Assembly (NCBI GenBank): GCA_026874595.1
Contig: CM049308.1
Location: 19,402,001-19,466,000, forward strand
Direction of reading: 5' to 3'
From: Sipunculus nudus
Taxonomy: Eukaryota > Annelida > Sipuncula > Golfingiida > Sipunculidae
Length of the DNA: 64,000 bases
Below are positions 4,308 to 59,799 of the stretch, one piece after another; within the stretch, counting starts at the first letter, position 1, and each line of letters opens with the position of its first letter. Position numbers and translations under genes: made by a program. The notes beneath the pieces were generated by a model, which was given only the letters and a program-made list of their open reading frames with translations, had not been told where the DNA came from and searched no databases.

Positions 4308-4315
4308 GACTCCCT

Positions 4316-10010: not shown

Positions 10011-10039
10011 CTTTTTATATGTCTAGTTGTTTTCCTAAT
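9789..10039 (-). CDS. LRR gene, first coding exon with short 5' UTR
   Basis: The donor AAGAG then GTGAGT lies after 9789. Upstream of the ATG at 10010 a good acceptor (TGTCTTTGCAG, exon from 10039) indicates a non-coding exon further upstream. Bases 10011-10039 would be 5' UTR. Confidence 0.8.
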
Positions 10040-19647: not shown

Positions 19648-19831
19648 GATCTATCTATCTATCTATCTAATCTATCTATCTAATCTATCTATCTAATCTA
19701 TCTATCTAATCTATCTAATCTAATCTAATCTAATCTAATCTAATCTAATCTAATCTAATCTAATCTAATCTAATCTAATCTAATCTAATCTAATCTAATC
19801 TAATCTATCTATCTAATTATCTAATTATCTA

Positions 19832-19867
<36 letters not shown>

Positions 19868-20186
19868 ATCTATCTAATCTATCTAATCTATCTATCTAAT
19901 CTATCTAATCTATCTAATCTAATCTAATCTAATCTAATCTAATCTAATCTAATCTAATCTAATCTAATCTAATCTAATCTAATCTAATCTAATCTAATCT
20001 AATCTAATCTATCTAATCTAATCTTATCTATCAAATCTTATCTATCTAATCTTATCTATCTATCTAATCTATCTATCTAATCTATCTATCTAATCTATCT
20101 ATCTAATCTATCTATCTAATCTATCTAATCTATCTATCTAATCTATCTAATCTATCTAATCTATCTAATCTATCTATCTATCTATC

Positions 20187-20240
<54 letters not shown>

Positions 20241-20300
20241 ACTATCTAACTAACTAACTAACTAACTAATTAACTAAGTAACTAACTATTTATCTATCTA
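19648..20300. repeat. TCTA/TCTAA microsatellite array, about 650 bp
   Basis: Tetranucleotide TCTA and pentanucleotide TCTAA units alternate in blocks. Two pure pentamer blocks (about 19720-19805 and 19910-20010) sit between mixed blocks. The right end drifts to TAAC units. This is far larger than any other simple repeat in the window. Confidence 0.95.
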
Positions 20301-20919
20301 TCTCTATATATATATCAGTCAATGTGTCAAATAATCGGACAGATTTTTCAGTCAATTTGTAAAATGCCTGAAAATTTCAGTCATTTTATAATGTGCCTGT
20401 GTGATTTAGGCAATTGTGCCTGATTTTACACATTGACTGTAACATATATATATATCTTTCAAAGTAAGCACTAACAGAAAGCAACAGAGTATTTCCTATA
20501 CACCTTTATATATAGTGCAGTAATGAGAAAGTCTTATTCTCACAGGCTATTATTTGTTTGTATTTATCGAGGATGTCTCTCACTAGCAATATTATAATAT
20601 ATAGTAAAGGCTATATAAGATCAGTATAAATATGTTTGGATTCATATTAAGGCTAGGTTACAAGGAAGTACAGTGCAGCCATCTCCCCGGAGACGCATGA
20701 TGCTCGTTGTTGTATGAGAGTAACAACATGATCACCTATTAGCAGACGCGAGTTGTTGCCGGGAACAGAACAACTTAATCTTAGTCTAAGTGCTGTCTAC
20801 TTGTAAGGCTCCTGTTAAACATATATTTGCTTTAAGAGAAACATGTGGTCCTGATTTGATGGGCAATATCTGAGGTAACCTAGCGGGGATTAATTTCAAC
20901 CTCCTGATAATATAAATAA

Positions 20920-25477: not shown

Positions 25478-26641
25478 TTACAAATGTGTGTATGTCTTGG
25501 GTCTGGTAAGCAGGGGATGCTGAAATTGTTCTGTGTTTGAAAAACCTGGAAAGTGTTGGTACGGAGTGACTTGGCTGTATGGGACCATATTTGGTGCTGG
25601 AACACTGTACGTGTGTGATAATGGCTCTTGTGAATTCGTGTATCCACTTGGAATACCGGTCACGGCCGGATGTGACGTCATCATCGGTGTCGTAGATACT
25701 GGACAGTGGTCGACTGCTGTGTTAAGTCCGTTTATGCGAGGGGCCGAGTTGATGCACGGTATTTCAGGCTGTGACACAATAGGGCTTGATGCACAAAATC
25801 GCATAATCCGGTCATCGTGCGCATGCGTGAAAGGTGTGTCTCTGAGATAATGACCGAGGTCATCCAGTCCGACCCCAGCTGGTTTCAGTGGGGGTGGAGG
25901 AGGAAGAGTGTGATACATTGGTTCAGGCAGTTTTGGTTGAGTTGATGGGATGTACACACTCAAGGGCTCAATTGGGCGACGATAAAGCACATCAAAATCA
26001 ATAGGACCGGAAGGTGGCGCCACTTTATTAGGTGGTGCTAAAGAATTTTCCGGGGATGCGGGTTTCTTGACTATATCCTCTGGTGTGCTTACGGCATTAA
26101 AAATAGCAGCCTCAGCGCTGTCATCTTGGAATGGCGATGTAGAAAACGAACTCGTTTCTTCTGGGAAAGATTTGAATGCGGGCTCATCGCGGTTTATAAG
26201 GACAGCTGACAGTAGTTCTGAAGCGGAAGCGGAAGGCGGAGGCGCAACGACGTTAGGCGGTCCTTCCATGTCTAGCTCCGCGGAAGTTGGCACTAAGGCG
26301 ATCTCTGTGGCTCCTACACTACTTGCAGTGGTCGACGCTGGAGATCCTGTAGAATTCTCAAATGTTCCATTAAGTGCGTATTCACCGCTTGAATCTGGTG
26401 AAGTACTACGGTCTGTGCTGGAAGAAGACGGCGGGGTTCCTTTTACGTTTTTCCTAGATCCATTAGATTTTGTGTTCTTTCCTTTCTTAAATTTTCCGTT
26501 CTCTCCAGTGTATCGTAGGAGTTCCTCTATCACACCATCCAGGACATCATTTCCGACGTATTTAGATTCAAACTTCGGTTTCTTTGATTCCGGCAAATCC
26601 TTGGAGACCACGTCTTTTCGTCGACGGTTTTGAAACCAGAT
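25478..26641 (-). CDS. Homeobox gene, exon 4 (helix 3 and C-terminal tail)
   Basis: The acceptor is CTGTTACAG before 26641. It opens with IWFQNRRRK, the recognition helix, and continues 378 further residues of low-complexity Ser/Pro/Thr sequence to TAA at 25480-25478. Confidence 0.9.
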   Translation of the reverse strand: MWFQNRRRKDVVSKDLPESKKPKFESKYVGNDVLDGVIEELLRYTGENGKFKKGKNTKSNGSRKNVKGTPPSSSSTDRSTSPDSSGEYALNGTFENSTGSPASTTASSVGATEIALVPTSAELDMEGPPNVVAPPPSASASELLSAVLINRDEPAFKSFPEETSSFSTSPFQDDSAEAAIFNAVSTPEDIVKKPASPENSLAPPNKVAPPSGPIDFDVLYRRPIEPLSVYIPSTQPKLPEPMYHTLPPPPPLKPAGVGLDDLGHYLRDTPFTHAHDDRIMRFCASSPIVSQPEIPCINSAPRINGLNTAVDHCPVSTTPMMTSHPAVTGIPSGYTNSQEPLSHTYSVPAPNMVPYSQVTPYQHFPGFSNTEQFQHPLLTRPKTYTHL

Positions 26642-27691
26642 CTGTAACAGGGATTGCCAGCATTAATACTGATGTCAATTATTAATAGTTCCAGGCTTAA
26701 TTAGCCATAATTGCAGATAACTACATACTTTCTATTTTATAAAGGAGACACAATATTACATAAATTTATAGTCTTCAAAATAATTATGATAACTGATCTT
26801 AATTCTTTACATATATGTATGTACAGCAAGTAATTATTACAATAATTACTAGGGTTGCCATTACTTATATGAATGCTGTGTTCTGTAAATAGAGCTACCA
26901 CATTGTGTGTATGTTTTAATATAAAAAATAACTGGAGGCACTTCGAATAAAAAATTTATACACGCTGCTTGCCATGATATCAAGCTCGTTAACATTTTTT
27001 TATTTTCAAACATTACACTTATTCCCACAAATTGCTTTCATTTATAAACATGTTTATGCCGATATTTGGATTACGTACACCCGTGTTTACACACCCGTTC
27101 CTCTCTCTATTTGTATTTTTTACCCATGAAAGTTTCACTTGATTTCCCGAAAATTCTGTGGAAAGTGGCCATTGGTCAACTATGGAATACTTGGTTATGG
27201 ATGTTAATCATGTCTGTATTCCTATTTGTGAGGTCCAAAGATTTAAGGGTATTGTATGTTAAGTGTGCAACGGTGGAAGGGATTGGATTTTGCGGTTGTG
27301 GCTCCAGTTTTATCCCCCTCCCAATTCTCTCTCCGACGTATCTCCAAATTCCTGAACATTATGTAGAAGACTAAGCTTAAGAGGCAATTAAACATTGGGC
27401 AAATCAGATAACTTTAGGGGCAGAACTTGATGCCAAGGTGTTGGCGGAGGTATGCTTCTCTGAGTGCTGTTTAGTTAGACTTTGTCCTCACCTTAACCTG
27501 ATCTCTGGTGATGCCGACCCTCTTGGCTATGAGCTGTTTCTGGACACTGTTCGGGTATCTCACTTTGTCAAAGATGCCATTCAGAAGCTCCAGCTGAAAG
27601 CGGGTGTAACTGAAACGTTCCTTCTGTGGTGGGGGACTCACCGGTGGTAGATCTAAAATAAATGAAAGAGCCATAATACTACTAATCACAT

Positions 27692-27761
<70 letters not shown>

Positions 27762-28586
27762 TTGTTTAAATACATGTCTTTTAAAAGTTTATTCTATATT
27801 CAATATCAATCAATCTCACAAATCGGATCCATCTGACCATCTAACCCGAAAGGTGTTTTAGAACATAGAATAGTAAAGAACAGTTGTATTTTGACGCATC
27901 ATTTTGAATATTCGTTTCTTGTCTTTGAACAACGAAGTATAAAGAAAGAGTGAATAACTTTTATCCGAAATCAGTTTTAGTGTGGGACTCTGTATAACCT
28001 TGACATGATTTTACCCTTGGCTTTCGTTGTCTATAGAAAGATTTTTTTTTTTGCGAAACTCACCATTATCATCATCATTTGAGCGTCCTCGTTTCCTACT
28101 TCCGGTAACATGGCCGTTGTGTGTGGGCACAGGAATTGGTGACGTTTGGTGTGGCAAGTTGTTGGGATGAGCATGCGTATTGTCCTGGAACCCGAGGACT
28201 TGTGGCATCACTGGCGTATCACACTGGGCCAGTTGGTACGGGTTATAAAACGGCGCCATGTTTTGGCCCGGCATCCCAGAAGGCATCGGGTGACGTAGTA
28301 TAGGTCCACCTGTCAAATAAAAATGTAATCTTATTAATAAAATAAGTACTTGAGCCAGATTACATATACTTAATCATTGCCTGTCAGCGCCTGTATTTTA
28401 AATCGCGTGTTTATATCGTGCACACGTGTGCAAATCGATTATAAATCATTGATATAGTACGATTTAAAAAATTTAGAAATTACTAATGAAATCCGGAGAG
28501 AGAGAAAGAGAGAGAGTTTGAGGGAGAGAGAGAGACATTGAGTGAGGCCATCTTGTCTCTTACATGTAAAGACAATTTGTGTCAGG

Positions 28587-32186: not shown

Positions 32187-32572
32187 ATGTCCATCAATAG
32201 ATTATCAGAAAAGTTCTTCTACAAACATCATAATTGCAAAAACAACCACTTGATCTCCTGATCGGTTTAATCATCCCGGTTAACACCTTTGATCTACCTG
32301 TGGTCATTAATTATGATAACTTGATTATCACAGGACAGCGGATAATTGTGTTACACCTGAGGCAATTAAAAGTACGTTACGTCATGGGTATAGCATCATG
32401 GGTACTATATGGTCAAAACATCATATATTAATATTTTGCTTTGATGCACCTAAAAAGATCAAAGTAGATATAATCTTTGTGTTTCTAATTAAAGAACATT
32501 ACAATGTTAATTATTATTACTAATTACTACTTTGTGTAATGTAAACATATATCCGGTATTTGATTTCTCTTA

Positions 32573-32736
32573 CGAAAGCGGATCCAGGGGTCCGGCCCCC
32601 CCTTTTTTGAAGGGTTTTAGACGAAATATGCGGCCTGGACCCCCCCTTTTCCGGACCTGACGTCCTTTTTATTAAGATTTTCATTAGTCCTCCTGGGTTG
32701 GACGCCCCTTTTCCAAAATCCTGGATACGCCCCTGT
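32573..32736 (-). mobile_element. GGATCC-family hAT-like MITE, copy 3
   Basis: The left end AGCGGATCCAGGGG and right end CCTGGATACGCCCCTG are inverted copies. The body matches copy 1 in reverse (GGACGYCCCTTTT, TCCTCCTGGGTTGGA). Confidence 0.65.
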
Positions 32737-32788
32737 CTTATAGAAGGTAAGTATTGTTTTAAAAGGCAAAACATTGTTAACTCGAAGC

Positions 32789-32889
32789 AAATAATAATAA
32801 TAATTATTGTAATAATAATAATATTAATAATAATAATAAAAATTATAATAATAACAAAAATAAAGACGATTAAAATAATAATAAAGAAG

Positions 32890-32921
<32 letters not shown>

Positions 32922-32945
32922 GACGATGATAATAATGATAAACAG
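32789..32945. repeat. (AAT)n microsatellite, impure
   Basis: ATA/ATT trinucleotides with scattered changes. Confidence 0.85.
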
Positions 32946-32949
32946 TATT

Positions 32950-42373: not shown

Positions 42374-42574
42374 TTATATAATGTAATTGATGAAAGGGAA
42401 ACTCGCCTCGTAGAACGATCCCGAGCTTTTGGATAAGGTATGTATTGCTCCGGCGAGAACAAAAATTACAGTGCTTAAAACAATCAGTAGCCCGATGAGG
42501 TCGGCCCACAGTGGATACTTGTAGGTACCGTTGGTGAGTCCCTCAAATTTCACGACGCCCAACACGGCCATACC
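42374..42574 (-). CDS. SLC6-like exon 13 (TM12 and C-terminus)
   Basis: GMAVLGVVKFEGLTN, YPLWADLIGLLIVL and a short tail ending in TAA at 42376-42374. A GC donor after SFYE could extend the gene, but nothing downstream fits, so the stop here is preferred. Confidence 0.82.
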   Translation of the reverse strand, partial: GMAVLGVVKFEGLTNGTYKYPLWADLIGLLIVLSTVIFVLAGAIHTLSKSSGSFYEASFPFINYII

Positions 42575-42740: not shown

Positions 42741-45700
42741 TTACTGTGGTTGATTTCAACTTCGAGAGGATAAAATGTCCCGATTTTCTTTTTTTCATTG
42801 TTTCGCGAGGGTTCCATTTTCAAGATCTTACTATGCAATAATTTGCAAACTGATTATATATATACATTCAATAATATACGCGCCAAATCATAACAATTGG
42901 ATGGAGACCCAAGTGAACACCGATGGATTTAAATAAATATTCATTAATAGTAGATTATTCGACATCATTTATAAGGACAAAAAAATATAGGGTATTGTTC
43001 TCAGGCACCGCCCGCGTCAATTTTAACCCCCCGCATCAAAAATTTTTATTTTGATTTTTATCTTTCAAGAAGAAAAATAATACAATTTATGTAGTGATTT
43101 AACCTGTTTAGCAAAAAAAAATTATTTTCTTGTTTTTTCCCTGATCATATGACAATTTTATCGAAACATTAAAAAAAAAAAATACCGCCCGCCCGCACTG
43201 ATTTCTGAAAAAAAGTGCCTGAGAACCATACCTTATTTTCATTTTGGCCTAATAGCAATACTTTTCCTTTCGACTTGCGGTCGACGATGGGGACTCTTTT
43301 TAAGAAGGTTTTATTTTCGCGATAATTTCCTTTCGTAAAATCGCGAGACAATCGCGAACAAAAAGGCAACCACAGTATACATATATATATATATATATGT
43401 GTGTGTGTGTATTGACGTATATAAGTTACATTTCGTTTAGCAAAGTCCGGCTAAATGGAAGGTATTCAAGATAATCACTCGAAATCGCTTATAAATACTT
43501 TTTATTAACTTTAAAACTAACTTTTTAACATTGTTGAATTTATTTTTCAAATCCATCTAACTAGATATATATATAAATAAGTATATGTTATGTATTGTCT
43601 CAGTTTGTCAATAAAATAAGAATTCACCAACCTCAATATATATTTTACGATAAGTGTTAAGTGTCTTTAAGCAAAATCTTGTGGGACACATACAGCAGTC
43701 ATATAAGGCGCGATACTTACCAAGAGACATGCGGGTATTATAAATCTTAATGCTATAACCCAATACCACTTGCAACCACCTAGCGGGAAACAGCCGCAAC
43801 CGCGATGCCCCACCATAAACTCAAGATCATTCAGCAAACTTGTGGCACCTGTAACGGAATGAACAGAAGCTATATGTGCAAGCTATTGCGAAATCTGGCT
43901 GCAGATATTAGGCAAACCAGAGTTTAACAAATTACAAATGATGGCGTTACTTCTCATGCTTGTACCACTAGTTACACATGACCCTTCATCTTCTGTCCAT
44001 TGTGTGCCAACCTGGTAATATACATGGTTTTCCGTCTGCCAACGTGTGCTCGTGTATTGTGTTTACTAATATTATAATAGCTTGCAGAGGAACAAGCTGA
44101 GAAGGGTTCTAAACAGGAACAACCCGAGTTCATTAATAGGTTTCCAGCATAAGTAAGAAATCCTATCACTCCAGACGTTCTACAAATAATGTTAAGATTC
44201 CTTTTGTACAGATAAGAAATCCTATCCCCTCACACGTTCTACAAATAAAGCTAAGATTCCTTTTGTGCGGCATGAAGAACGCGGCATGCAGGATGCGAAC
44301 AAAATCGGTATTGGCTAATTATATAAGACGATATTCATTATGTATAAGGCATAAGGATTACGTATCCGACAAAAAGGATCGCAACTTTTGATTTTTTTGC
44401 CGGTTCTGCATGACATCCAAAAGCAACACATATAAAACAAGCATGCTGCTGTCGTGGAACATATGTAATCTCTATGCATTCCGTAAGTAAGGAATCTTAG
44501 CTGTATAGCTATATTTTTGGCACCGTACCATATATGTAGGCCACTCCGACAACTTGAAAGAATATCAGAAGTAGTGTATTCCAGACCCCCGTGTAGAAGA
44601 TCAACAGCTGTGTGATGTAGTCTCCGCCCTGTTGAAGATAAACAATCACTATATGGTGTCCACTACCGAAAAATATATAAATCATTCGGAATCTTCATCT
44701 ATCGACGTTTTTACGGTCAAGGTTTGGCGTGTTTATGGTTGCGGTGACGCATTATGGGAAGATATTTTTTTTGTTGGGGAAGCCATCTTGTAGAGTCGTG
44801 AGAACATTCGAATAAAATATTCGTAACGCAAAATAAAGATTTATATAGTACCTGTCCATTTTCCATACCTATTACCCAGGCCATAACTACAATACAATTT
44901 TAACAAAATGGTTTTGTGATGTTTTGCTTATACACGTGCTAATGCAATACTGAAGTGTAAATTCTTTCTATGGGGAGGTGCCCATTGCCACTTCGCGATC
45001 TGTTCATAAAATGATCAGGTCTTAAGGAATCTTGAACAATGGGTAGAATGAATTCCAGAGTGTAAGCTTTTTTTACGTCCAACTGCTACGATTCGTATCT
45101 ATCTGACACCTTTGTTTCTAAAATCACAACTCAAAGAATATGGTCAAAGTGACCTTATATATTTAGGGTTTCTAAAAAGATTATACAGGGCCCTCTCTGG
45201 ATCTTTATTAGATTAGAGGTTTCGTGGTCCTATTGTTTGTGCCCGCCAGACTAATAGGGTGCTTATTCATGCTCTTTCACAAAGCTCGCTGAATATAGGT
45301 CACAGTGACAAGAAACTTTAACGGGAACCTCCCAAGATCTTAACCAAATAAGAAATTTCCAGGTCAACTGTAACAAATCCTGCATCTATGTTGTATAGGG
45401 TGCTAAAATCATGTTCTTTCATATATTTTGCAGAATACAGGGTACAATGAGCTTATTTGGGAGTCCATTTTCCATACCTATTACCCAGGCCATAACTACA
45501 ATACAATTTTAACAAAATGGTTTGTGATGTTTTGCTTATACACGTGCTAATGCAATACTGAAGTGTAAATTCTTTCTATGGGGAGGTGCCCATTGCCACT
45601 CCGCGATCTGTTCATAAAATGATCAGGTCTTAAGGAATCTTGAACAATGGGTAGAATGAAATCCAGAGTGTAAGCTTTTTTTTACGTCCAACTGCTACGA

Positions 45701-48060
45701 TTCGTATATATCTGACACTTTTGTTTCTAAAATCACAACTCAAAGAATATGGTCAAAGTGACCTTATATATATTTAGGGTTTCTAAAAAGATCATACAGG
45801 GCCCTCTCTGGATCTTCATTAGATTAGAGGTTTCGTGGTCCTATTGTTTGTGCCCGCCAGACTAATAGGGTGCTTATTCATGCTCTTTCACAAAGCTCGC
45901 TGAATATAGGTCACAGTGGCAAGAAACTTTTACGGGAACTTCCCAAGAACTTAACCAAATAAGAAATTTCCAGGTCAACTGTAACAAATTCTGCATCTAT
46001 GCTGTATAGGGTGCTAAAATCATGTTCTTTCATATATTTTGCAGAATACAGGGTACAATGAGCTTATTTGGGATGCCCAAAGAGACTTCTTGTAACATGA
46101 AGAAAGACCTTCTAGACCAGTCAGTTAAGATTTGTGCCCTGTCTGACTTTGTGGGTGCTAAACATTAGGTTTTCCGCAAGAAACTCACCGAACAAGGTTC
46201 ATCATAACCAAATCTCAGATGTTGAAGCCAATTTGCCCAATTCCTTGAATTTTAAGTAATAAAATGCCAGGTCCTACAGTATTTATTTGTGTCCAACTGA
46301 CATTTACAATGCTAAAGTTATGTTTATTTCCTCAGAGTGCCCAGAGCTGGACTCGCAAAAGTGCGACTCTGCTGTTTTGGGATTGTGGGTGTCAGATTAT
46401 GACCCCCAAAATGCACTGGGGCTTCTAAAAACACCAGCGGCGTAGGTATAAATGTAGTGAAGAGGAAAATGTAGTCCGTTCATGTGTTGGATAAGAATTG
46501 TTTCAAAGCAAATTACATAAAAATGGGTGTTTCGTGGTAGGGACTCTGCGGAATAAGTAATATATTGTAAGCACACGCGTGTGAAATGTAAACAGAAGGT
46601 GTTTCCTTGAAATGTAATAAATTTTGATCTTGAAGTTGGACAGTTGATACAGGTAGTCCTGGCCGTCCGACAGCGGACAGCAAAAACAGAAGGGATTCGT
46701 TTCAAGTAGAAAGCGAACTCTGGGGGAAGGGTGGTTTTCCCTACAGTTAACAGAATATAGATCATAATTACCTAATTTCAGGATTCAAAAGAGATTTGCC
46801 AAGGAACTCCCTGGATGTCACATCAGAAGGTTCTACGTCAAACAGTAAAGTTTGCGTCCTGTCTCGGTGCTCCAAATCATCCCTGGATGTTACGTTAGAA
46901 GATTCCAGGGATAACGGATATAATTTGTGCAATGTTTAACTTTTCGAGTCCTCATATTTTTGAGAGTCGCTCGAAAAATATAGGTCATAGTGACCTAGTT
47001 TCAGGTTTCCATGGAGATTTTGCCCAAAACATTGATGGTCCGTTAAGGACCACCCAGGATGTCAAGTTAGAAGATTCCAACGGTAACGATTTGTGTCAAC
47101 GAATGGACGGTCGAACGGCGGACGAAGGGTGATCTCTATAGTTCAGATGACTTTCATTCAGCTGAGTAAAAAACAATTTATAAATATGTTAAATGTATAT
47201 CAACATACCCCCATGCAAAGGATGAGCCCAGCCAGGAAGCACAGAGTGCAAAGCACGAGCCTGAAGGGAAATGGGTGGGCCCTGAGATGTGGCATGACGT
47301 CACAGATAGACGACGCCATCTCCTCCATGTATATCACCTGTAAATATACAATAACTATATGTTATTAAACGGCCTGTTCAGTATTGCTTTTGTATTGGTC
47401 AGAGGGTGGCAGCTTAGGCCATACAAAGGCAATATCCAAAAAGCCTCATCATATGTTTTTTAAACGACATATTATCAACACAACCAGCCGTGTACAATCA
47501 AACTATTGTCAGTTTCATTCAAAGGGGCTGGGTTACAGAGCTATGTGACTTCACACGAATCGTGAAGCTTGTCGATTTCATTCTTGGGCGTTGCGTGTAT
47601 ATTTAGGTTCTGGCTGATATGAGCTCACTGTATTAACAAAGTGTATAAGCCTTATCGCCTGTATATCACATTACAGGGCTCTGTATCTTTGTGACATGGG
47701 TGACCGGTTCATAAATAAAAAAAGTTCACCATGTTCATTAAAATATAAGGTTTTACATTCCATGGACGTTTATATATTTTAAACACGTCAAATTAACATT
47801 ACCTTCGTAAAAGATTGTATTAGACTATTAATATGATTCCTGTCTTAAGCAAATGCCCGTATATGTATATACATGTATGTATATTTCAATCAGCAAGTCC
47901 TTTTTTTACACTATTTAAGGCTCAGAATCGTTGATATTTGTGGAATTTCAATGCTAAAGAAATGCCAGGCTGCTTTTACGATCACCTTTGACTAGGGCGT
48001 GATCCTGTGAAAACAATTATGATATTTTATGAATATATATGTATATATGTACGAACATAG

Positions 48061-48117: not shown

Positions 48118-48641
48118 ATTTTATCATTGTATTCACTGAACATGAAAACAATTATAATATTTTATGAATATATATGTATATATGTACGAACATAAGTATA
48201 TATATATGTATATATATATATATTATATTCCAAACATATATTCATAAAAAGAAGTAAAAAAAAACTTTTAAATTACTCACAACAGTATCAAGACCAGCTA
48301 CGAATACAACAACGTAAAATAGAATGAGCCACCAAACAGTAGGCGATACAGTTCTAACTCCCTCCGGAAGAATAACAAATAACAGCTCGCTTACTGTAAA
48401 AGAATTTTCAATATATAATATATACATATAAATATATATATGCATCAAACGTTATATATTATCAGAATATAATAATTAATATTAACTAATTGTAGGAAAT
48501 ATTGAAATTTATGCATATACAACAAACACATTGTTCTAGATATACAATAAGTGATCAGTAAACCGTTTATATGAGAACAGTTGTTATAGATGGTTTGCAG
48601 ACGCACGTGAGACCGAACTTGTGTGTGTGTGTGTGTGTGTG

Positions 48642-48692: not shown

Positions 48693-51352
48693 ATACTGTG
48701 GTTGTCTTCTTATTTGCGGTGGTTTCAAATTCGCGATATTCGCGGTCGCCCTCTGACCGCGAAATTGAAACCGCGCAGTTTTGAATGCATATATATCAGA
48801 CAATGATCATTAATTTCAGAAGCTGCCGATAGTTTGCGACAGTTGAGATTTATCTTCAGCTACGTAGTGATGTCCATCGAGCCTGGTGCATATACGTTAT
48901 GTGATTCAGGGAGAATGACAGGGCCCATTTAAAATAATACCGGTTGGCTTAGATGCAAAAACCGGGACCCTTTGCAGGTGCGTGCTAACGCCGGCGGACC
49001 CACCCGGCAGTTTTTCCTGTCCCCCGGTACATTACTGGAAATTGTCAATGTCCGCTGGGCACTAATATTTAAAAATTACGTGTATGGGTGCCAAGTTAGA
49101 TGACATCCGGTGCCGCTTAAAAATTAATATTGGGTAGAAGGTCCTCTTTCACATTGTGCCGTATATAGTCATGTAAATGAATAAAATTTGCCACTAAAGT
49201 AGTGAACGTAGCCGCTAGGGTTGCGCAACCTTGTAACTATATTAAGGACTAATTCTGTGAAATCATGACGCGCCAAACGATGTATGATTGGTTATAGTGA
49301 TTATGAATATATTTGAAAGGTTCACAGTTCATTATGGCACCAAAATTCCGTAAAACAGTGGGATATTATGTTTTGCTTGAGATTTTAACCGTGAGAAACT
49401 GAATACGGTTCCTTCTTCCACCTATATAGAATTAATTAGCAACATTAACGGCACTCAAATTATTCTGGGCACATCCCTGCCTTTGACACTGAAACAAGGG
49501 GGCAACCTACAGGCGTCCCTTTTTGGTTGAGCAGGTGATTACGTCTCGACTTTTAATTAACAGGAGTAAGATACCCTTATCAAGACAGTTTCCCTAAACA
49601 AACTTAATATACGGTTTTGTAGTTACAGGTTGGTGTCTCGACACACCTTCATAACATTTGAGTTGTTTTAATGAGCCTCGGTTCTGAACTAATTACAGCT
49701 ACGGGGGTCAATGCTTACCGCAGGCGTCGGCTCAGCCGTTTGTGAAGGTTCGAACATGCGATATCCGGACAGAGAAAAAGTAGACCTAGATTATAGTGAA
49801 ATCACCGGTTAATGAAATTATTTTTGATAATAAAATATACTACTAGAACAATGATAGCTAGAGCGCGAATAAGGAACCCCGTGAAACTTTTAAGAATATA
49901 AAAACCGCGAAAATTCAGCCCCGCCAATATAAAGGCAACCACAGTATATAGGCCCCAAATACAATTCCGAGAGGTTGTTATTTGGAAAAAGTATTTATTC
50001 ACATTTTATTCATCACAAATAAATAAATAAATGAATTCTCCGCGAATTAACGGGTCCGTCTCATTATCACACAAAATATTTAGTCATAGTAAATAAAATA
50101 CTCGTATCCCTCACATCCTGCTCCGCAGGAAATATGAACGAAAGTAATAAAAAGAGAGAAAGAATAAAAAGGAAATTAATATGATTGTGTGACACTTTAC
50201 CAGAGGACGGTGTGAAGTAAATCTGTTTTTCCGCCATAGAGGCAAAACAGCTGCAGATTAACATGGCTCCCGTGACGTTGACAATTATGCTGACCACGAC
50301 CACTGTCACCGCGTCCCTGTAATCATCACCCAAGATTATTACAACAAATCGATATTAATGACTACGGAGAAATGCATCACGCTGGTAATGTTTTCATTTA
50401 ATTTAGCCAGCTTTCATTCTGAGGGATTTTCTTAAAGGAGAATAAAATCAATAAGGTAATGTGGATAAAAATAAATATGCTTATTTTCCCGATTGAGAGT
50501 TGCATGGTTCTATCACTAGGTGGCGTGACATTCGTACCTTCGCTTGCTCTCAAAATAATATTATTTAACATAGAGGAATAACTTACGTCAATAAATACCT
50601 TCTGTATGATTGTCTGTCGGTTTTTAAATGTCGAGAAAATTAAGTATAGCTTGCACTACTTGCATTAAAAAAAAACTGCTAATGCCCATATCATTTGATC
50701 TTTCAAATAATAATGTTATTTTTCCTTTTTTGGTTATCATATTCATTTCATTAAGGCAAAGTTTTATGTATGAAAAGAAAGGAAGATAAGAAATGGGTAA
50801 CTTATATCGAAAATGAACAAAAATGTAGAATTCTCAAAAGTATCTTACCGCACTATGTCACAGTGTAATCTATTATGAGAGGCCAGAGCGATGTATATTC
50901 CTTGCCCTACTCCAAGTGAACTGCTGACGACGCCCGCAGCCTCGATCCAGGCACGAGAGTTTGTCAGGACGGACATGTCGTAGTGAAGGAAAAGCCCCAA
51001 AAGAGAATGAATGTCCACGGGACCTCTGAACATGTACACGAGAATGACAACTATCCACGCCACCGGCAGGAGCGCGGTAATATACATCACCTACAACAAG
51101 GGTGCGCCAATATAGGGGGGATGAGGTATATATAGCCCCACAGAGCCGCAGAGATGTAATCACCCCCTCCCCTAAATTCAGAGAATAATATTCATATATT
51201 GGAAATGAAATGTATTCAAAAAAAAGAATAATCTACTTTGGTTCCATTTCAGAGATTACTATGAAATATTATATATCTTAACCTGGTTCAGAATTAACTT
51301 AAACTGGAAATATAAAACCATATTGTATAAACCTTAAAATATTGTCACACAG

Positions 51353-51393: not shown

Positions 51394-52355
51394 GTTTATA
51401 AAAAAAAAATTTCGGAACTACGATTACCCTCCAACGGCTGCGAGTCATACCCCTAACCCTTGAAGATAAATTGAAGCCAATTGCTACAAATGTAAACCAA
51501 AAGTCTGAAGTCGCCTAGCGATGACAAGCGAACCCCCCTTGAGATCAAAAGTAAAAAATGAATAACAGGTGCAAATCTTTGCACTTAGGACATATTTTAC
51601 CTATAAGTCAGCTGCTTAAAAGTCATAACTTAAAGTTCTAGCGCAGCAAGGACAGCAGTGGGCGATAATAGAAAATTGGCTATGGAGTGAACGGCCTTGG
51701 AAATAAGGTCAAGACAAAAACAGATGCGAATCTGTCACTTAGGTATAATAGTCTACTTAAAGGCCAGCTTTTGAAAAATCTACAATATTTTAAATTAAGT
51801 GCAAACAGAAAGGTAGAGGAAAGAAAAATAATTGACCCACATTGTAATTGCCCCAATATGGATTAGAAATAAACTTTTTAACCCCGTAGGGAGGAAGGCT
51901 TAAATATACATAGTGGTTAGATGGTTGTGCTAAATGTCGAATGGGTACTCGAGTACTCAAATCTGAGTAATTTCAGCTGAGTACTCGAGTGTTAAATCTG
52001 GGAAATAAAACTCGTGAAAAACATTTTTTTTTTACAAAAAAAAAAAAGAATAAACATGAGCCTCTTTTACTGCGCCACTTGATTCCATGTATTCTACAGT
52101 TAAAAAAACCCATTAGTATGATGTGTGAAATATTTGGGGGAACAAAATACAATTTCGTATGCTCATTCTTACTTTGCTCGCGGTTTTTAGTCCCCGGCTC
52201 ATGATGAGGACGATGAATACCCAGACGATGAGGTACGACACACAGACCTCCCACTTTAACCCTCCCACAGCCATCAGACCGCCATCCTTCTTCTGATACA
52301 CCGAATAACTACAATAACAAGAAATATGGTCAAATATATATCCATTTATGTATGT

Positions 52356-52406: not shown

Positions 52407-55400
52407 TCCAGTTTCAAATATTTTGTATATGAATATACATTTTTCTTGTAAGTTATATAGTAGTTTTTTCGAAGGCGAATACATATAAAATGTGATATAA
52501 TTCTTTATATATACATATTATTATTATTATTATTATTGAATGTATAATATTTCCTTGAAAAAGTCTGTATTATTAGGTAGGTGTGGTTGAATTAGACTCT
52601 TTTATTACCCAAGATTTTATATTTGTTTAGTCTCTGCCAACAATCCGGAAATATGGTATCTGAATAAATATTTTTATATTTTCAAGACTGCCAAAGGTAT
52701 TTTTTCTAAATTTGAGTATATTGGGGTATAGCTGGTCAAAGTGTGCATATTGTATGACCATTGCCCATTGATAGTAATAATGTACTGTACACATATCATA
52801 ATTTGATGGGAAAAAAATATAAATTCTTTAGGTCATCCATATAATTTACAATCCCATCGTATGACTTCAGAAGGAATATATTCTGTGATTTGAGCCATTT
52901 GACATTAAAAATGTTGTAGTTATAATCTTATACTTTGTTTACTCACTGAAGGTACTCTACGACAGATAAGTTCCACTTAATTCCATGGCTTTCCGCTATC
53001 GTATCATTCCAGATTCCATGCAAACGACCGGAAGTTGTATTATAGCACGTTCCATTTTCGTAACTGACTATTTCTGTCACATTTTTGCATTGGTCAACAG
53101 CGGTTGTATTTGTTATCATTGACGGCGTTTGGCACGTGCCATTTATGTAACTGATTATATCAGTCATATTTTTGCAATAGTCAAATTCGGTTGTTTTTAT
53201 TTTCACAGACGGTGTTTGGCAAGTGCCATTTATGTAACTTATAATATCAGTCACATTTTTGCATAATTCAACACCGGTTGCATTTGTTACCATTGATAGC
53301 GTTTGGCATGTGCCATTTATGTAACTGATTACATCAATCACATTTTTGCAATAATCAACATTGGTTGTATTTGTTACCATTGATGGCGTTTGGCACTTGC
53401 CATTCATGAAACTGATTAAATCAGTCACATTTTTGCAAAATTCAACACTGGTTGCATTTATTATCATTGACGGTGTTTGGCACGTGCCATTTATGTAACT
53501 GATTATATCATTAATATTTTTGCAAGAATCAATATTGGTTGCTTTTGTTATCGTTGACGGCGTTTGGCACGTGCCGTTAATGTAGCTGATTATATGAGTC
53601 ACATTTTTGCAGAAGTCAACACTGGTTGCATTTGTAAACATTGATGTCGTTTGGCACGTGCCATTTATATAACTGATTATATCAGTCACATTTTTGCAAT
53701 AGTCATCCCCGTTTGTATTTGTTTTCATTGACGTCGATTGGCACGTGCCATCTAGGTTACTAATTAACTCAGTCACTTTTTTGCAAAAGTCAACACCCGT
53801 TGTGTTTCGTATCATTGGCTGCGTTTGGCACGTGCCATTTTCTTGACTGATTATATTAGTCACATTTTTGCAAAAGTCAACACCGGTTGAATTTTGTATC
53901 ATTGACGGCGTTCGGCAATCTGAAAATAATCAAAAGTACAAGCATTAATGATTTTTATTTAAGGTCATTTAAGACTTATATTCATCTGCATTCCATGTAG
54001 AAGTGATGCAATTTCTAACTGATTCTTGACACTTACTTATAGGTCATTCCTCATAGTAAAGCTCTATTAGACCCCTGTCACGCAGGCATGAGCTTTTTCG
54101 ATTACAGGCTGTTAGCAAACATGACACACATATTGACAAGCAGAAAAACCATATAACCGGAAGTGGTTGCATGAATGCGCATGAGCGGAAGTTAAAATAT
54201 CACTATAATTTTCTGTTGGTGAGAGCAACGCTATCTTTTGTATTATTTATCACCAGATGCCCTTGTTGGGCGTGTTTTACACTTTGTTTTCCCAGTAACT
54301 ATCTATGATGAGTTTAATTTCTACTTACACGGAGTGTTGTATGGCTGGTCACAGCTATAAAAGGGAAGCGGTGTTTCATTGATGAAGGCCAAAGTACTAG
54401 GTCCAAGAAAGAGGAGAGAAGTAGCCAGTCGAGCGGACGAATACAAACCCGTGAGTAACACAACACTCAGCATAGCATAAGACAGACCTGCAAGGACAAA
54501 AGGATTCTTTTCTTTAAAAAAGACTTTAAATACAGAATGCCCCCATTAAAACGATGGCTTTCTTGTATGACTTGTCACCAACAAAACATTCAGTATGGCA
54601 TCAGATAAACCTGAAAGAATATGAAGATTTATTACTCCCAAACGCACAATACAGTATCCCCACTAACTCGACCGCTTACATGAAAATTTTTCATCAACAC
54701 GACACTCAATATGACATAAGATAGCCCTGCAAACATCAGAATGATATTTTCTTTAAAAACGTATAACACATTAGTCTCCCGAGTGAGTTAGACTTGAAAA
54801 TGTTCAGTCATCATGACGTACGATAAACCTGCAAGTATAAGAAGATTCGTGTCTTAAAAACAAAATAATGCACTATACTCCTGTAACACCACAGCCTTCG
54901 CATAAATCTTGTCACCAACAAAAAATGTTGAATGTTATCAGATATACTTGCAAGCAGAAGAAGATTCATTACTTCAGAGCGTGAAGTACAGTATATTCAT
55001 TCACTCTACCATCTCCAGGACAAAGTACCAACAAATATTTAAAACGCAAAACACAGTACAATCCCGTTTAAACGTCCGAGGCAGACTTGTTATCCAACAA
55101 CAGTGAGAGTGACCTGCAGGAACAGGAAAATTCATTTCTTTAAAACGTAAAATACAGTATGTACAATATACCAAACTAACACCACCGTCTTAGTTACAGA
55201 CTCGTCACCATCACAACAATGGAACTTCAAGAATAAGAAAATTTAGTTTTTAATAACCTAAAATTTGGATTTCTTTACGGACTGATCACCGAATCAAATG
55301 TCAGCAAGGTAAAAACAAACTCCAAGAACATATGATGATTAATTCTTTCAATATGAAAAATAGAGTTAGCCCCTCTTAGACGACTGCTTTGGACAGAGAC

Positions 55401-58192
55401 GATCCTAGTTAGCAAGAAACCGGCTTCCATGGCTAAGAGCAAATGACTCAAAGCCGACAGGTCGTGAATTCAAATCTCATGAGCGTTGAAATTTTCACGG
55501 TCGGCCCCTACTAAGGTAGAACTCTCTGATGGCTTAATGGGAAGGTTGTGTATCACGGCCGAGTATCACTCACAAAAGATTGCGTCTTTGGGATGTTTCG
55601 TTGTTATGACCCAGCAATGGGGATGATTACACAGCCAGATCTGCAGGTACGGTAGACACCGGGCCTTTCAGACACCAGGATATATAATAAAAAAATGACA
55701 GGAAGCGAGTGCTACCACCCTTTCAGGTAGTCCCAAACTGGAATGGAACTCTGCAGATGTAAATACTTAGCTTAAGACTTAATATTAAATAAAAGGGATG
55801 GAGAAAGACAGTTCTGTAAAGAGAAAACGACTCTTACGCACAACAACTATTTCAATACATGGTAATGTATATGCATAAAATTCGCTGAAGGCGATTTGCA
55901 TTATTCCACTGGAATGGACTTGAATGCAACGACGAAACTTTGGCTGATCATATGGGTGTTCCAATTGTTATAAAACAATATCCATTTAAATATCATGAGA
56001 ACAATGTTAATCTCTTTTCCACATCAATAAGGCCATTAAAACCCACATAACATAATAACAAATTATATCACATCATAATATAATATAATATAAAACAATA
56101 TAATATAATATAATAAAATATAATATTGTGTAATATAATATTATAAGTAGTTAAAGCTCGTCGAGCGAGCACGGTGACCTTTACCTATTATTATTATGTG
56201 CAATTATTATATATTATAACTATATTACCTCTGATTATTTTGGCAAATTCCCAGCAAGCCATGAATCCCCGACTAGTGAACTGTCCCAAAGTGAACTCTA
56301 GGATGACGACTGGAGTTCCAAATAATATAATGAACAGCAGATAGGGCACAAGAAACATCACTGCAAAAGAAGCATTAGACATGTATGAGCTATAAAGGCT
56401 GAAGAGTAAAGAAATAGTATATTGAATAGTATGAAAAATACAAGTAGTTACAAGTAAGGTAATCATTTACTATTAACGTGAAAGGCCCTTGTTCACAAAG
56501 GGACCAACCTTGCTATTTTGGGAAAATGTTACAGGTTAAGGTTCTTTTAATGGGAAGGTTGACTTATTCATGTCAACGATGATCAAATGTTTGAATGGAC
56601 AGAAAATATTGTAGAACTTTTCTTGTCGGTGAATACGTATGTTTTCATATTGTGTACAGTATATCTTAAAAAAAACACCGAAAGATTTAAATATCGTTTT
56701 GTGTTCAGGTGATATTTCGAGACAAGGAAGTGCTGCATGTTGGATATAAAAAGTTAATAATCGGTTCTGGCGGAGGTATGGGCTCTCTAAGAGCTCTTTT
56801 AAAAAAGAATCAGGTTATGTGCTGCTAGGCACGTGCTTCCATGCTTATGTTGAAAGATCTACCCGTATCTTTACAAAGACCACCGGGGTAATTTCTTATT
56901 CTCCCGTGTCTTTTTGTTGGTTTGGTTGTTTGCTGCCAGGTACAGCCATAAACACCTAAACAAAGAGCATCGAACCATGTACCGGGGATATTAAAGGCGC
57001 AGATCCAATGGGATATTATTCCTTCGCAGAAGTATGAAATATATACTGTGTGCTAGGCTATAGTAGTTGTCAGTTGCTAGCAAACTCACCTCCATATTTA
57101 ACGTAAGAGATAGCAAAGACGCCGATATTTTCCAGCCCGATGACGTAAGCAAAGCAGACGAACAGGAAGTCGGTCCTGGTCGACCAATGACCGCTCACTC
57201 TCTTCAGGTCAGCATCATCATCATTTGTATTTTTGTGTACTTGTTTCTTTGTCTTCCTCTGTGAATATTACACCGTTCATTTATTTCTTATTATCTTATG
57301 TTGTTTTTAGGTTTATCGGGAGACAAAAATTGAGAGCCTACTAAAGTCCGTTTCTATCCCTCATGTCCACCTGTTTTTGCTATGAAAAATTTTTATTACT
57401 ATATTAGTTATCTTTCAAGGGGGAAATATAGTTTAGGTAGAGTATTTAAGGACCTAATTTTCAACAAGGTAAATAAATACCTACATTATATATTATTTAA
57501 GAAACAGATTTATTAATAAAACATGAGAAATCAGTCTACATTTTACAACATATATGACCCACTTATGGCGTGAAGGTCTTTGGTTACATGCAAATACAGC
57601 CTCAAATGACACTTGCTGATATGATGATGCCATGTAAACACTCCAAAAAATATAACCAGCGAAAACAAAGATGGCTACTGATGTACTGACACATCTGATC
57701 TGCCAGATCATTGTGAGGAGACCAAAAAGTTTTAAAGCGTAAAATAGAGATTTATTGTAAAATTCATTGCCACCTTAGGTTGTCCTTCAACATGTATTTC
57801 TAGGAAATTATTGAAAATATAATCTTATAAGAAAGTTATCTAAAAACAGATTGACACAGGTTGGTGGAATGGAGTTTAATGAGGCAACGGGCTGATAAAG
57901 GATCCTGGTTGAGTAAATTCTTGAACCAACATTGATGTAAATGATTTAACTGAATGATAATGAAGTAAATAGTTAAACTCTTAACAGGTTCAAAAACATG
58001 CATGAATTAAACTAAGTATTTTTCAATATAAACATGGATAATTAAAACTTCACAGAACATAAAAACAGAACGAAAAGCTTAGAGGCACAAGAGAAGTCAT
58101 GGGAAGCTTAGACTGACCTTTTTCTTGACGACTTTTTCCTCTGGTTCTTCTGTCTTTTTGGGAGGTTTCTTGTAACAGTTTCCATAGTCTGA
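42374..58192 (-). CDS. Divergent SLC6-family transporter-like protein with repeat-expanded EL2
   Basis: Thirteen in-phase GT-AG exons encode 890 residues plus stop, without the start codon. The segments follow the SLC6 (neurotransmitter:sodium symporter) fold in order: basic N-tail, TM1 (FVCFAYVIGLENIGVF), TM2 with FLVPYLL and LGQF, TM3 (GLSYAML), a long EL2, TM4 after GGLKWE, TM5, TM6 (SSSLGVGQG), TM7, TM8 ending GLDTV, TM9, TM10 (GGDYITQLL to YIYG), TM11 and TM12. The usual total is about 600-700 residues; the excess is EL2, where ten 29-residue repeats (residues 180-469) follow the second conserved loop cysteine. The TM1 motif NVWRFP is replaced by NIGVFA. The TM1 gate arginine is Val and the TM10 gate acid is Ile, so classical sodium-coupled uptake is doubtful. 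GLD in TM8 and the TM1 Asn remain. Plasma membrane location is expected. Substrate unknown. Confidence 0.88.
42676..42740. repeat. (AT)n microsatellite
   Basis: Lies in the last SLC6-like intron. Confidence 0.95.
42742..43377. mobile_element. Candidate TIR element with ACTGTGGTTG ends, copy 1
   Basis: TACTGTGGTTG at 42742 is inverted as CAACCACAGTA at 43377. Both ends adjoin TA runs and carry TCGCGA-type motifs inside. A second pair of the same ends bounds 48694-49949. Confidence 0.45.
42991..43232. mobile_element. Nested MITE with 18-bp TIRs
   Basis: GGTATTGTTCTCAGGCAC (42991-43008) and its inverse GTGCCTGAGAACCATACC (43215-43232) match at 17 of 18 positions. The 242-bp element lies inside the ACTGTGGTTG element. 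Confidence 0.7.
43721..43848 (-). CDS. SLC6-like exon 12 (TM11)
   Basis: ATSLLNDLEFMVGHRGCG... to WVIALRFIIPACLL, matching the usual NDIxxMxG and WxxxxPxxL pattern. Confidence 0.88.
44529..44628 (-). CDS. SLC6-like exon 11 (TM10)
   Basis: GGDYITQLLIFYTGVW to VVGVAYIYG. The gate acid in the family pattern (LLD or FDY) is Ile. Confidence 0.9.
44854..46074. repeat. 609-bp tandem duplication
   Basis: 44854-45462 and 45463-46074 are almost identical direct copies, with a few substitutions and one- or two-base indels. Both begin GTCCATTTTCCATACC and end GAGCTTATTTGGGA. They lie in the intron between SLC6-like exons 10 and 11. Confidence 0.95.
46320..46735 (-). mobile_element. Dispersed repeat family B, copy 3
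   Basis: The inverse of 39420-39800. It shares CAGCGGCGTAGG, ATGGGTGTTTCGTGG, CAGTTGATACAGGTAGTCC and CGTTTCAAGTAGAAAGCGA. Confidence 0.7.
46850..47165 (+). mobile_element. Decayed repeat with mollusc-type terminus
   Basis: GGACGGTCGAACGGCGGACG is followed by TGATCTCTATAGTTCA and TCAGCTGAGTAAAAA. This resembles the end of a repeat common in bivalve genomes, recalled from general knowledge and not checked. Confidence 0.4.
47209..47337 (-). CDS. SLC6-like exon 10 (TM9)
   Basis: VIYMEEMASSICDVMP, then FPFRLVLCTLCFLAGLIL. It keeps the family order (E...D...P) between TM8 and TM9. Confidence 0.88.
48061..48230. repeat. (TA)n microsatellites with a local duplication
   Basis: TA runs are separated by a duplicated block (AACAATTATRATATTTTATG through TACGAACATA). 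Confidence 0.8.
48281..48393 (-). CDS. SLC6-like exon 9 (TM8)
   Basis: SELLFVILPEGVRTVSP to FVAGLDTV. GLD of the second sodium site is kept and the following Ser is Thr. Confidence 0.88.
48617..48690. repeat. (TG)n-(TA)n microsatellite
   Basis: A GT run leads into a TA run, ending at the TATACTGTGGTTG terminus. Confidence 0.9.
48694..49949. mobile_element. Candidate TIR element with ACTGTGGTTG ends, copy 2
   Basis: TATACTGTGGTTGTCTT at the left is inverted as AAGGCAACCACAGTATA at the right. The two ends may bound one 1.25-kb element or be separate copies. CGCGAAATTGAAACCGCG lies near the left end. Confidence 0.4.
50201..50316 (-). CDS. SLC6-like exon 8 (TM7)
   Basis: DAVTVVVVSIIVNVTGAM... 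to FASMAEKQIYF. The TM7 Asn that binds sodium in LeuT and SERT aligns with Ser here by counting back from MAE; this alignment is by eye. Confidence 0.9.
50849..51090 (-). CDS. SLC6-like exon 7 (TM5, EL3, TM6)
   Basis: VMYITALLPVAWIVVILVY, then RGPVDIHS, WIEAAGVVSSSLGVGQG and ALASHNRLHCDIVR. It keeps the W(I/M)xA and SxNxxHxxxxRD landmarks. The TM6 unwound region is SLGVG, where the family usually has SLGPG or similar. Confidence 0.92.
51099..51483 (+). mobile_element. hAT-like element at the exon 7 splice acceptor
   Basis: The left end AGGGTGCGCCAATATAGGGG and the right end CCCTTGAAGATAAATTGAAG match the element at 12197-12687. CTACAA flanks both sides (51091-51096 and 51484-51489); on the gene's strand this reads TTGTAG, the splice acceptor itself. 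Confidence 0.65.
51355..51392. repeat. (AT)n microsatellite inside the hAT-like element
   Basis: A short AT run. Confidence 0.85.
52173..52308 (-). CDS. SLC6-like exon 6 (TM4)
   Basis: YSVYQKKDGG, GGLKWEVCVSYLIVWVFIV and SRGLKTASK; compare the family patterns GGxxWxL and KGVKxxGK. Phase 0 donor, AAA then GTAAGA. Confidence 0.9.
52358..52403. repeat. (GA)n microsatellite
   Basis: A pure GA run of about 46 bases, about 50 bases from the exon 6 acceptor. On the gene's strand it is a CT tract. Confidence 0.9.
52947..53919 (-). CDS. SLC6-like exon 5 (repeat-expanded EL2)
   Basis: A single 973-base exon, the largest of the gene. It holds ten 29-residue repeats and then a non-repeat segment (CYNTTSGRLHGIWNDT to WNLSVVEYL) that rejoins the normal family pattern before TM4. 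The donor is CTTCA then GTGAGT, phase 2. Confidence 0.92.
53048..53917 (-). repeat. Ten tandem 87-bp coding repeats (29 aa each)
   Basis: The consensus opens CQTPSM(I/V)TNAT and continues VD(F/Y)CKNVTDIISY, then INGT. Cysteines sit at unit positions 1 and 16 in all ten copies, giving 20 in total. N-X-T sequons occur at positions 9, 18 and 27 and number about 22 across the array. No indels or stops break the 87-bp register, which implies selection for length and frame. Confidence 0.93.
54329..54487 (-). CDS. SLC6-like exon 4 (TM3 and start of EL2)
   Basis: GLSYAMLSVVLLTGLYSS... ends at FYSCDQPYNTP, the conserved first EL2 cysteine and NTP. Its 5' end is the nearest unit of the intronic array at 54488-55400. 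Confidence 0.9.
54488..55400 (-). repeat. Intronic tandem array of decayed exon-4 heads
   Basis: About seven units of 93-166 bp, mostly near 117, repeat the head of exon 4, its CAG acceptor and about 80 bp of upstream intron. Acceptor positions fall near 54611, 54728, 54830, 54949, 55115, 55228 and 55321, beside the real one at 54488. The first two units still read LSDAILNVLLVT and LSYVILSVVLM against the real LSYAMLSVVLLT. Farther units are more decayed. Confidence 0.8.
55400..55800 (+). mobile_element. SINE-like dispersed repeat, copy 3
   Basis: The tRNA-like head is clearest here: A-box-like ATGGCTAAGAGC and B-box-like GAATTCAAATCTC. The body has the same landmarks as 3500-3870 (CACGGTCGG, AATGGGAAGG, CACCGGGCCT, TCTGCAGATGTAAATACTTAG). 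Confidence 0.65.
56229..56360 (-). CDS. SLC6-like exon 3 (TM2)
   Basis: MFLVPYLLFIILFGTP, then VVILEFTLGQFTSRG; the family motif LGQF is intact. Phase 1 at both ends. Confidence 0.9.
57090..57258 (-). CDS. SLC6-like exon 2 (end of N-tail and TM1)
   Basis: Basic RKTKKQVHKN, acidic NDDDAD, then GHWSTRTDFLFVCFAYVIG and LENIGVFAISYVKYG. The GxWxxxxDF approach to TM1 is conserved. The donor is GGAG then GTGAGT, phase 1. Confidence 0.88.
57341..57876. mobile_element. TIR element of about 535 bp, copy 2
   Basis: The left end ACTAAAGTCCGTTTC is inverted as GAATGGAGTTTAATG at the right. The interior matches 23472-23996 in the opposite orientation. It lies in the first SLC6-like intron. Confidence 0.6.
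58118..58192 (-). CDS. SLC6-like exon 1 (cytosolic N-tail)
   Basis: 25 codons, SDYGNCYKKPPKK...VVKKK. The acceptor TATTTTAG puts an in-frame stop just upstream, so the start codon must be in an earlier exon. The donor is AAG then GTCAGT. Confidence 0.75.
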
Positions 58193-58520: not shown

Positions 58521-58636
58521 TTACCCCTCACTTTTCAGGTCAATAAAGCAAACTTTTTTAACATGGCTTGTATTGATCCTCCTCAGATGGAGCCGGTACA
58601 TGCAGATTGTAGTGATTGCTGCGTAGAAAGCAAAAG

Positions 58637-58824
58637 CTAATCCAGGGAGAGGTTCCAGAGAGTCCGGACCCTCCTTTTTTCGCCGCCGGAACCTTTTTTG
58701 AGGGTATCAGACCAAACTTGCACCCCTCCACCCTTTTCCGGACCTAGGAACTTTTTTTTTAAAGATTTGTCACTAGTCCTCATTGGTTGAACCCCTTCTT
58801 GTCCTATATCCTGGATCCGCCCCT
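58637..58824 (-). mobile_element. GGATCC-family hAT-like MITE, copy 4
   Basis: The right end is ATCCTGGATCCGCCCCTT and the left end AAGCTAATCCAGGG. GAAAGCA lies on both sides, compatible with an 8-bp duplication with one mismatch. It is just upstream of the candidate start exon. Confidence 0.65.
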
Positions 58825-59799
58825 TGAAAGCACGGGAATTTTCACTTAGAATTGTTACTTTTGTTGCTTAATAAATGTGGAACATGTCTTCCAATGAGAA
58901 GTTTCTAACAGAAAATTTTGTTAAAAACAATCATTTTTATTTAGAAAATCAGCGTTCATCCTACGGATGCCAGGTTTTTTATTAACAATGCAGTAATATG
59001 TTGAAGACCAGCTCAGATATGACTCCAGTTCCTATATAAGGTAGCTGAACGGGCAAAAACCTTATAACTAAAATATATCTAAAAAATTTTTTTAAATTCA
59101 TGCAGCCATGGAACATGAATTGCAGTAATTGCAGAATTTAAATGCCCGACATTTTGCATGAAGGTTTATGAAATCGGAGGAGCTTCATGTGTGGGTCTAT
59201 ATCTGACGAATATTAACTGAAGATTAATGAAGATAAAACGTGTGCCAAAAAACGCCGATCCCACTTCACACAAGCGCTTGTATATATCCTCGCTATATAA
59301 TCAACGCATTCAAGAAGAGTACCAGCCGGCAATCAGACGAACCAAAGTTTTACAAAGGGCCTTTTGCAACTACTGACCTTTCAACTTCCATATAGGTGCA
59401 AGCAAACCACCTGTCATTACATAGTTTTTCTGTTTGTCAACATTGGGGCATGTTCCATGTTTACTAACAGCTTCTAGATAACCAAGCTCATACTTCTCAC
59501 CACAGATTCGTTAAAAGAACTTTCCTTCAGTACCTTAGTATGCACGCAGCGTAAGCCAGAATTCAAATAGACTCTTCAGAAAAGGTTGGTGAATAGCTAG
59601 CTTAAATGAAACCACGTGTCACTTGTTCTTTCATAGTAACAGTCCACATTACTGTCCGCTAATCTTTAAAGTGCGATAAACAATAAAAAATCAATTTATG
59701 CATATCCCACCCTAATTATTTACCTTAAACGAAGGGCGCCAAGCTTGTGGTGGATGCTCTCACACACTGTGAATTTCTACGATTTTCAGCGAAAGAATT

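Follow-up and report, generated by a model that had tools for sequence, protein, structure and literature searches.

A ten-unit cysteine- and sequon-rich repeat array in the second extracellular loop of a predicted SLC6-family protein of Sipunculus nudus with replaced outer-gate residues

The window analyzed here is a stretch of 64,000 nucleotides of the Sipunculus nudus genome (assembly GCA_026874595.1, contig CM049308.1, positions 19,402,001 to 19,466,000 of the forward strand), and all positions given below are those of the window. Its minus strand carries a gene of the SLC6 family, for which 12 exons were placed manually, guided by the family alignment and the reading frame, and then joined by script, giving 846 codons without a stop and a GT donor and AG acceptor at all 11 introns. 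The exons, together with the repeat array encoded by the fourth of them in the second extracellular loop (EL2), are as follows, in the order of translation.

57090..57201, minus strand: SLC6 exon, TM1, with GLENIGVFA replacing the family N-x-W-R-F-P motif; shown from the first codon used
56229..56360, minus strand: SLC6 exon, end of TM1 to TM2
54329..54487, minus strand: SLC6 exon, TM3 followed by the beginning of EL2, including its first cysteine (C127)
52947..53919, minus strand: array exon, 973 bp, with the second EL2 cysteine (C136), the array and the remaining EL2
53048..53917, minus strand: repeat array, ten 29-residue units, C-x14-C-x13, consensus CQTPSMITNTTGVDFCKNVTDIISYINGT
52173..52308, minus strand: SLC6 exon, end of EL2 and TM4
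50849..51090, minus strand: SLC6 exon, TM5 and TM6 (Q replaced by V558, F by S561)
50201..50316, minus strand: SLC6 exon, TM7 (N replaced by S594, S by N598)
48281..48393, minus strand: SLC6 exon, TM8 (D659 and T660 at the Na2 site)
47209..47337, minus strand: SLC6 exon, TM9
44529..44628, minus strand: SLC6 exon, TM10 (D replaced by I714)
43721..43848, minus strand: SLC6 exon, TM11
42377..42574, minus strand: SLC6 exon, TM12, open to the coding end; stop codon TAA at 42374-42376

The assembled protein matched PF00209 with an E value of 1.7e-77 (261.8 bits, against a curated cut-off of 27) and 104 distinct PDB sequences at E ≤ 0.001, the best being Drosophila DAT (dDAT; 6m47_A, E 6e-61). The alignment with dDAT is co-linear, with TM1 to TM12 in order, and comprises residues 6-137 and 454-835, which flank the array; its gap corresponds to the array and the remainder of EL2. 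When this protein and six relatives were compared with the window by tblastn, all 16 matches fell inside this gene, and no second SLC6 gene was detected in the window. The 5' boundary of the TM1 exon and the start codon were not located; since an in-frame ATG is absent from the portion of the TM1 exon inspected, the start exon is missing from the model. The first-pass annotation had assigned the array to exon 5; it lies in the fourth of the exons placed here, and would lie in the fifth only if one upstream N-terminal exon exists, none having been found.

Several other features were observed in the window. A long leucine-rich-repeat open frame on the minus strand (6508-8808; LRR_8, E 9.1e-70) probably encodes a cytosolic LRR protein, and an 81-amino-acid piece upstream of it (9780-10022, minus strand), which starts with Met, may be its first exon. 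A homeodomain (E 5.8e-08) is split across two minus-strand exons (27474-27788 and 25481-26662), the second of which opens with the homeodomain end (WFQNRRRK), followed by a long tail of low complexity. Within 44840-46100, in the TM9-TM10 intron, frames ~610 bp apart encode nearly identical peptides (for example, at 45266-45385 and 45877-45996), suggesting a direct duplication of ~610 bp, which exceeds the longest period of Tandem Repeats Finder (TRF). Similar G-rich peptides (RIQD..G-KGG..) encoded by frames at 3891-4385, 32523-32948, and 58561-58867 suggest an interspersed repeat element. In addition, a 655-bp ATCT/ATCTA microsatellite occupies 19649-20303, many further simple repeats occur in the window, and scans of the window for tRNA genes and Rfam families gave no match.

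The array consists of ten 29-residue units with no stops and no indels, and TRF reported 10.0 copies of an 87-bp period at 53045-53917, with 80% matches and 0% indels. The ten frame-intact units claimed from a first reading of the letters were recovered at exactly the same coordinates by minus-strand translation and at nearly the same ones by TRF. Identity between units ranges from 72 to 86% at the nucleotide level and from 41 to 79% at the amino acid level. All ten units have one cysteine at position 1 and another at position 16, the claimed spacing of 15, and hence all 20 unit cysteines are retained; an extra cysteine ends the array, giving 21 cysteines from C136 to C426 in the assembled protein. 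Besides C1 and C16, residues K17, S24, and G28 are invariant in every unit. The array contains 22 sequons, all of the N-x-T type, with one to three in each unit, a count that agrees with the ~22 proposed beforehand, and adjacent sequons, when both occur, are spaced 9 or 11 residues apart. A higher-order repeat was considered in view of the TRF scores (1079 for a 261-bp period versus 976 for 87 bp) and was rejected, as identity is not raised at a lag of three units (mean, 80.0%, versus 80.6 and 81.0% at lags of one and two). Further copies of the unit elsewhere within the 64-kb window gave no match better than E 1.3. An assembly artefact, the alternative named together with the original observation, is judged unlikely because no pair of units exceeds 86% nucleotide identity.

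The EL2 of SLC6 proteins is usually regarded as a short glycosylated loop that aids folding and trafficking. Here, the motif C127-D-Q-P-Y-N-T-P-Y-C136 retains the C-x8-C of the family, and the dDAT alignment puts C136 on the second EL2 cysteine; the array begins at this residue, exactly where the first-pass annotation had it start. The alignment to dDAT picks up again at residue 454, ahead of TM4, in line with the proposed return to the family pattern before that segment. Measured to where the hydrophobic part of TM4 begins, the distance is 333 residues from C136 and 43 from C426, so that the array extends this portion from 43 to 333 residues. Together, these results support a cysteine- and sequon-rich repeat insertion of ~290 residues in EL2 of an SLC6-family protein, as claimed.

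The corresponding C-x8-C pair in EL2 of rGAT1, Cys164-Cys173, forms a disulfide according to the available part of PMC10352132, and the first array cysteine of the present protein is probably a partner in the usual EL2 disulfide, C127-C136. If that pair is kept, the other 20 array cysteines would pair without remainder, C16 of each unit with C1 of the next; C1-C16 pairing within every unit, as suggested at first, would leave C127 and C426 unpaired and is, by cysteine parity, the less likely arrangement. As human DAT retains 63.5% of its activity when cysteines of EL2 are changed (available part of PMC2817725), the insertion site can accept change. The array exon begins in phase 1 and ends in phase 2. 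Its skipping would shift the frame and bring in a stop codon once 145 assembled codons have been read, so that simple skipping could not yield an array-less transporter; transcripts lacking this exon, which had been named as the observation that would speak against the array, are thus predicted to be frame-broken.

Constraint on the array was assessed with a neutral simulation of 5000 runs that used the observed divergence from the consensus (100 nucleotide differences) and the observed spectrum. Under this simulation, which assumes that the units are independent descendants of the consensus and may depart from their real history in this respect, a mean of 13.7 of the 20 cysteines was retained, with all 20 in a single run (P 0.0002). 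A stop-free array arose in 2% of the runs and in none of the 5000 together with all 20 cysteines, and five or more invariant columns likewise appeared in 2%. The unit cysteines are retained under constraint. The sequons, in contrast, are no more numerous than expected under neutrality (22 versus a mean of 19.1, P 0.17), and amino acid changes among the units are only marginally low (65 versus 71.9 expected, P 0.051). When the paralogous units of this one gene, rather than species, were compared, pN/pS was 0.76 overall (bootstrap, 0.49-1.17), 0.49 for C1 plus residues 16-29 (0.28-0.83), and 1.09 for loop residues 2-15 (0.68-1.97), the last being not significantly greater than 1. Given the lower value in the core than in the loop, each unit appears to combine a constrained core bounded by cysteines with a loop free to change; departures from the consensus affect 43 of the 140 residues in the loops and 22 of the 150 in the cores.

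These loop values bear on the possibility that the protein is a ligand- or pathogen-facing receptor or decoy, in which residues 2-15 would be free or diversifying on a constant disulfide frame. Both the higher loop pN/pS and the larger share of loop departures would be expected from such a protein, and an SLC6 member with a role in immune signaling, SNF-12 of Caenorhabditis elegans, exists (available part of PMC3309975). However, the loop value does not significantly exceed 1 and derives from units of one gene, and SNF-12 is vesicular in the same source, with the parallel drawn from role and not from sequence; considering both sides, we regard a receptor or decoy as quite unlikely.

With respect to composition, GC3 is 0.38 in the array exon and 0.56 in the other exons of the gene, while intron GC is 0.35; the TM8 exon is lower still (0.29), and most other exons lie between 0.44 and 0.74. 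The low value in the array exon is compatible with a segment that is younger or under weaker constraint. Such closeness to intron composition would also suit a relic, that is, an SLC6 copy in decay, with a neutral minisatellite expanded inside an exon and gate residues (described below) lost without selection for transport, and the same can be said of the overall pN/pS, whose bootstrap range reaches 1.17, and of the richness of the window in microsatellites. Nevertheless, 846 codons free of stops and frameshifts, GT-AG boundaries at every intron, cysteine retention beyond the neutral expectation, and the core pN/pS of 0.49 all speak against decay, and we consider a relic very unlikely.

When searched alone, the array gave no Pfam match spanning the whole unit and no PDB sequence match. 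Retrotran_gag_3 (E 1.5e-07) and DUF1737 (E 5.2e-07) scored above their cut-offs with the array exon alone and were rejected as repeat artefacts, because their best stretches cover only 12-18 residues each and because both fall below the cut-off in the assembled protein (22.6 versus 24.1 and 21.7 versus 24, respectively). AlphaFold2 (AF2), run on the single sequence of the array exon alone, predicted strands throughout with a pLDDT of 67.7 and a pTM of 0.67 (worst of five, 29.7), and a second model, based on a three-unit alignment, placed one helix per unit within the segment from C16 to the next C1 at a pLDDT of 34. The AF2 array model had no structure match in the PDB at E ≤ 0.001, and the best of 206 matches at E ≤ 10 had an E value of 2.9e-02 and a TM-score of 0.16. 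A beta-solenoid fold was not adopted in view of the middling pLDDT, this lack of PDB matches at E ≤ 0.001, the helical second model, and the tendency of AF2 to predict unrealistic beta-solenoids for repeats (available part of PMC11795689). Neither model of the array is reliable.

For the transporter core, 16 functional positions were tabulated on a single basis, the PDB alignment with dDAT, using a dDAT numbering and an equivalence of dDAT and rGAT1 sites that are in part our assumption. The rGAT1 residues were taken from the available part of PMC10352132. All tabulated sites lie within single exons and are therefore independent of splice choices. Five of the 16 positions are as in dDAT or rGAT1, and 11 differ, one of them conservatively (Ser to Thr). 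The outer gate is replaced at all three positions (Arg of TM1 by V28, Gln of TM6 by V558, and Asp of TM10 by I714) and the substrate roof at both (Tyr of TM3 by S98 and Phe of TM6 by S561). One of three Na1 side chains is changed (Asn to S594, with Asn25 and Ser562 kept), and the Na1 backbone position has V20 in place of Ala. Two of the four chloride ligands, Tyr44 and Ser562, are kept, the others being changed from Gln to V558 and from Ser to N598. At the Na2 site (TM8), Asp659 is kept, Ser is conservatively replaced by T660, and the backbone positions are A18, I21, and A656.

In GAT1, the conservative changes Arg69Lys, Gln291Asn, and Asp451Glu impair transport, with Na+-dependent transient currents persisting, and a change of Gln291 combined with Ser331Glu still allows transport, without chloride (both in the available part of PMC10352132); the second position of that pair is Asn here, not Glu. 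Because the gate, the roof, and half of the chloride ligands are replaced and GAT1 mutants at the gate positions are impaired, the gene is filed as SLC6 by descent and is predicted not to encode a classical Na+/Cl−-coupled transporter. The phrase "on a transporter fold" used in the first-pass annotation implies a working transporter, which is doubtful with the outer-gate and roof residues replaced.

A still-working, unusual transporter would combine an altered-coupling core, using Na2 only and independent of chloride, with an array that serves as a glycosylated cap protecting the protein or tuning access. The frame that stays open through TM12 and the presence of D659, T660, N25, and S562 agree with such a protein, as does the tolerance of DAT EL2 to changes (PMC2817725, in the part available). 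In the opposite direction, the whole outer gate and the whole roof are replaced, and in GAT1 even conservative changes at outer-gate sites are impairing (PMC10352132, likewise in part), making continued transport rather unlikely.

We tentatively favor, at somewhat less than an even chance, the reading that this SLC6 fold has become chiefly an anchor for a heavily glycosylated ectodomain and lacks the usual Na+/Cl−-coupled cycle. Its basis is the sequence, namely, the 12-exon SLC6 frame, the ten EL2 units with their cysteines and 22 N-x-T sequons, and the replaced gate and roof. It also draws on the impaired transport of GAT1 gate mutants, the constraint on the unit cysteines and cores, and the tolerance of human DAT EL2 to cysteine changes. 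In the proposed arrangement, the EL2 disulfide C127-C136 would be retained, and the other 20 cysteines of the array, paired between C16 and the next C1, would close ten glycan-bearing modules by disulfides, with variable loops between them, the array projecting from the outer face of TM3-TM4. The core, lacking the Arg-Asp gate, the Gln, and the Tyr/Phe roof, would not perform classical Na+/Cl−-coupled alternating access, and the protein, rather than a pump, would be a surface glycoprotein serving as a shield, a matrix contact, or a receptor. Counting against this anchoring role are the retained Na2 acidic residue, N25, Y44, and S562, which fit a transporter with altered coupling, as well as the tolerance of a Gln291 change together with Ser331Glu in GAT1 (PMC10352132, available part), sequons at the neutral level, the discordant structure models, the missing start exon, and the reading of the gate losses from a single alignment. 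A more specific form, with a transport-silent core and an EL2-built surface receptor or shield in which ten disulfide-closed glycan modules sit on a 12-TM anchor with their loops facing ligands or pathogens, seems unlikely.

If the SLC6 fold indeed serves mainly as an anchor here, the protein, with a dismantled gate and an EL2 that outweighs most of the extracellular surface, would illustrate the reuse of a transporter fold as a scaffold and provide a natural test of the importance of outer-gate residues. Moreover, should the copy number or loop sequence of the array vary among individuals or species, the array would be a marker of ligand or pathogen contact.

Relatives bearing the array were sought in a protein collection that seems to be poor in animals. 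No such relative was found with the whole protein (at least four proteins among 7994 scored candidates) or with residues 427-846 (at least two among 7998), and the array-exon protein gave 5612 candidates with none at E ≤ 1; since the collection is apparently animal-poor, missing array-bearing relatives are weak evidence. Two of the six related proteins, P0001 and P0005, were inspected and lack the array, P0005 also being without TM1-TM3. Viral contigs yielded one stretch fitting a pattern and none confirmed, and the open-licence PMC papers searched described no SLC6 protein with an EL2 repeat array.

Like secreted or surface cysteine-rich tandem-repeat glycoproteins, the array has short units, fixed cysteines, and many N-glycosylation sequons, but it is located in a loop of a 12-TM protein, and no family was matched. 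SNF-12, an SLC6 protein with a signaling role in epidermal immunity of C. elegans and possibly a signaling platform, is likened to the present protein by role and not by sequence; this signaling role means that reuse of the SLC6 fold has a precedent, whereas SNF-12 is reported in endosome-like vesicles, and the available parts of the sources mention no EL2 array for it (PMC3309975 and PMC11925461). With SLC6/NSS transporters such as Drosophila DAT, GlyT2, and GAT1, the protein has in common the TM1-TM12 homology, the EL2 C-x8-C pair, and a continuous exon frame, while it differs from them by ~290 additional residues in EL2 and by the replacement of the outer gate, the roof, and half of the chloride ligands.
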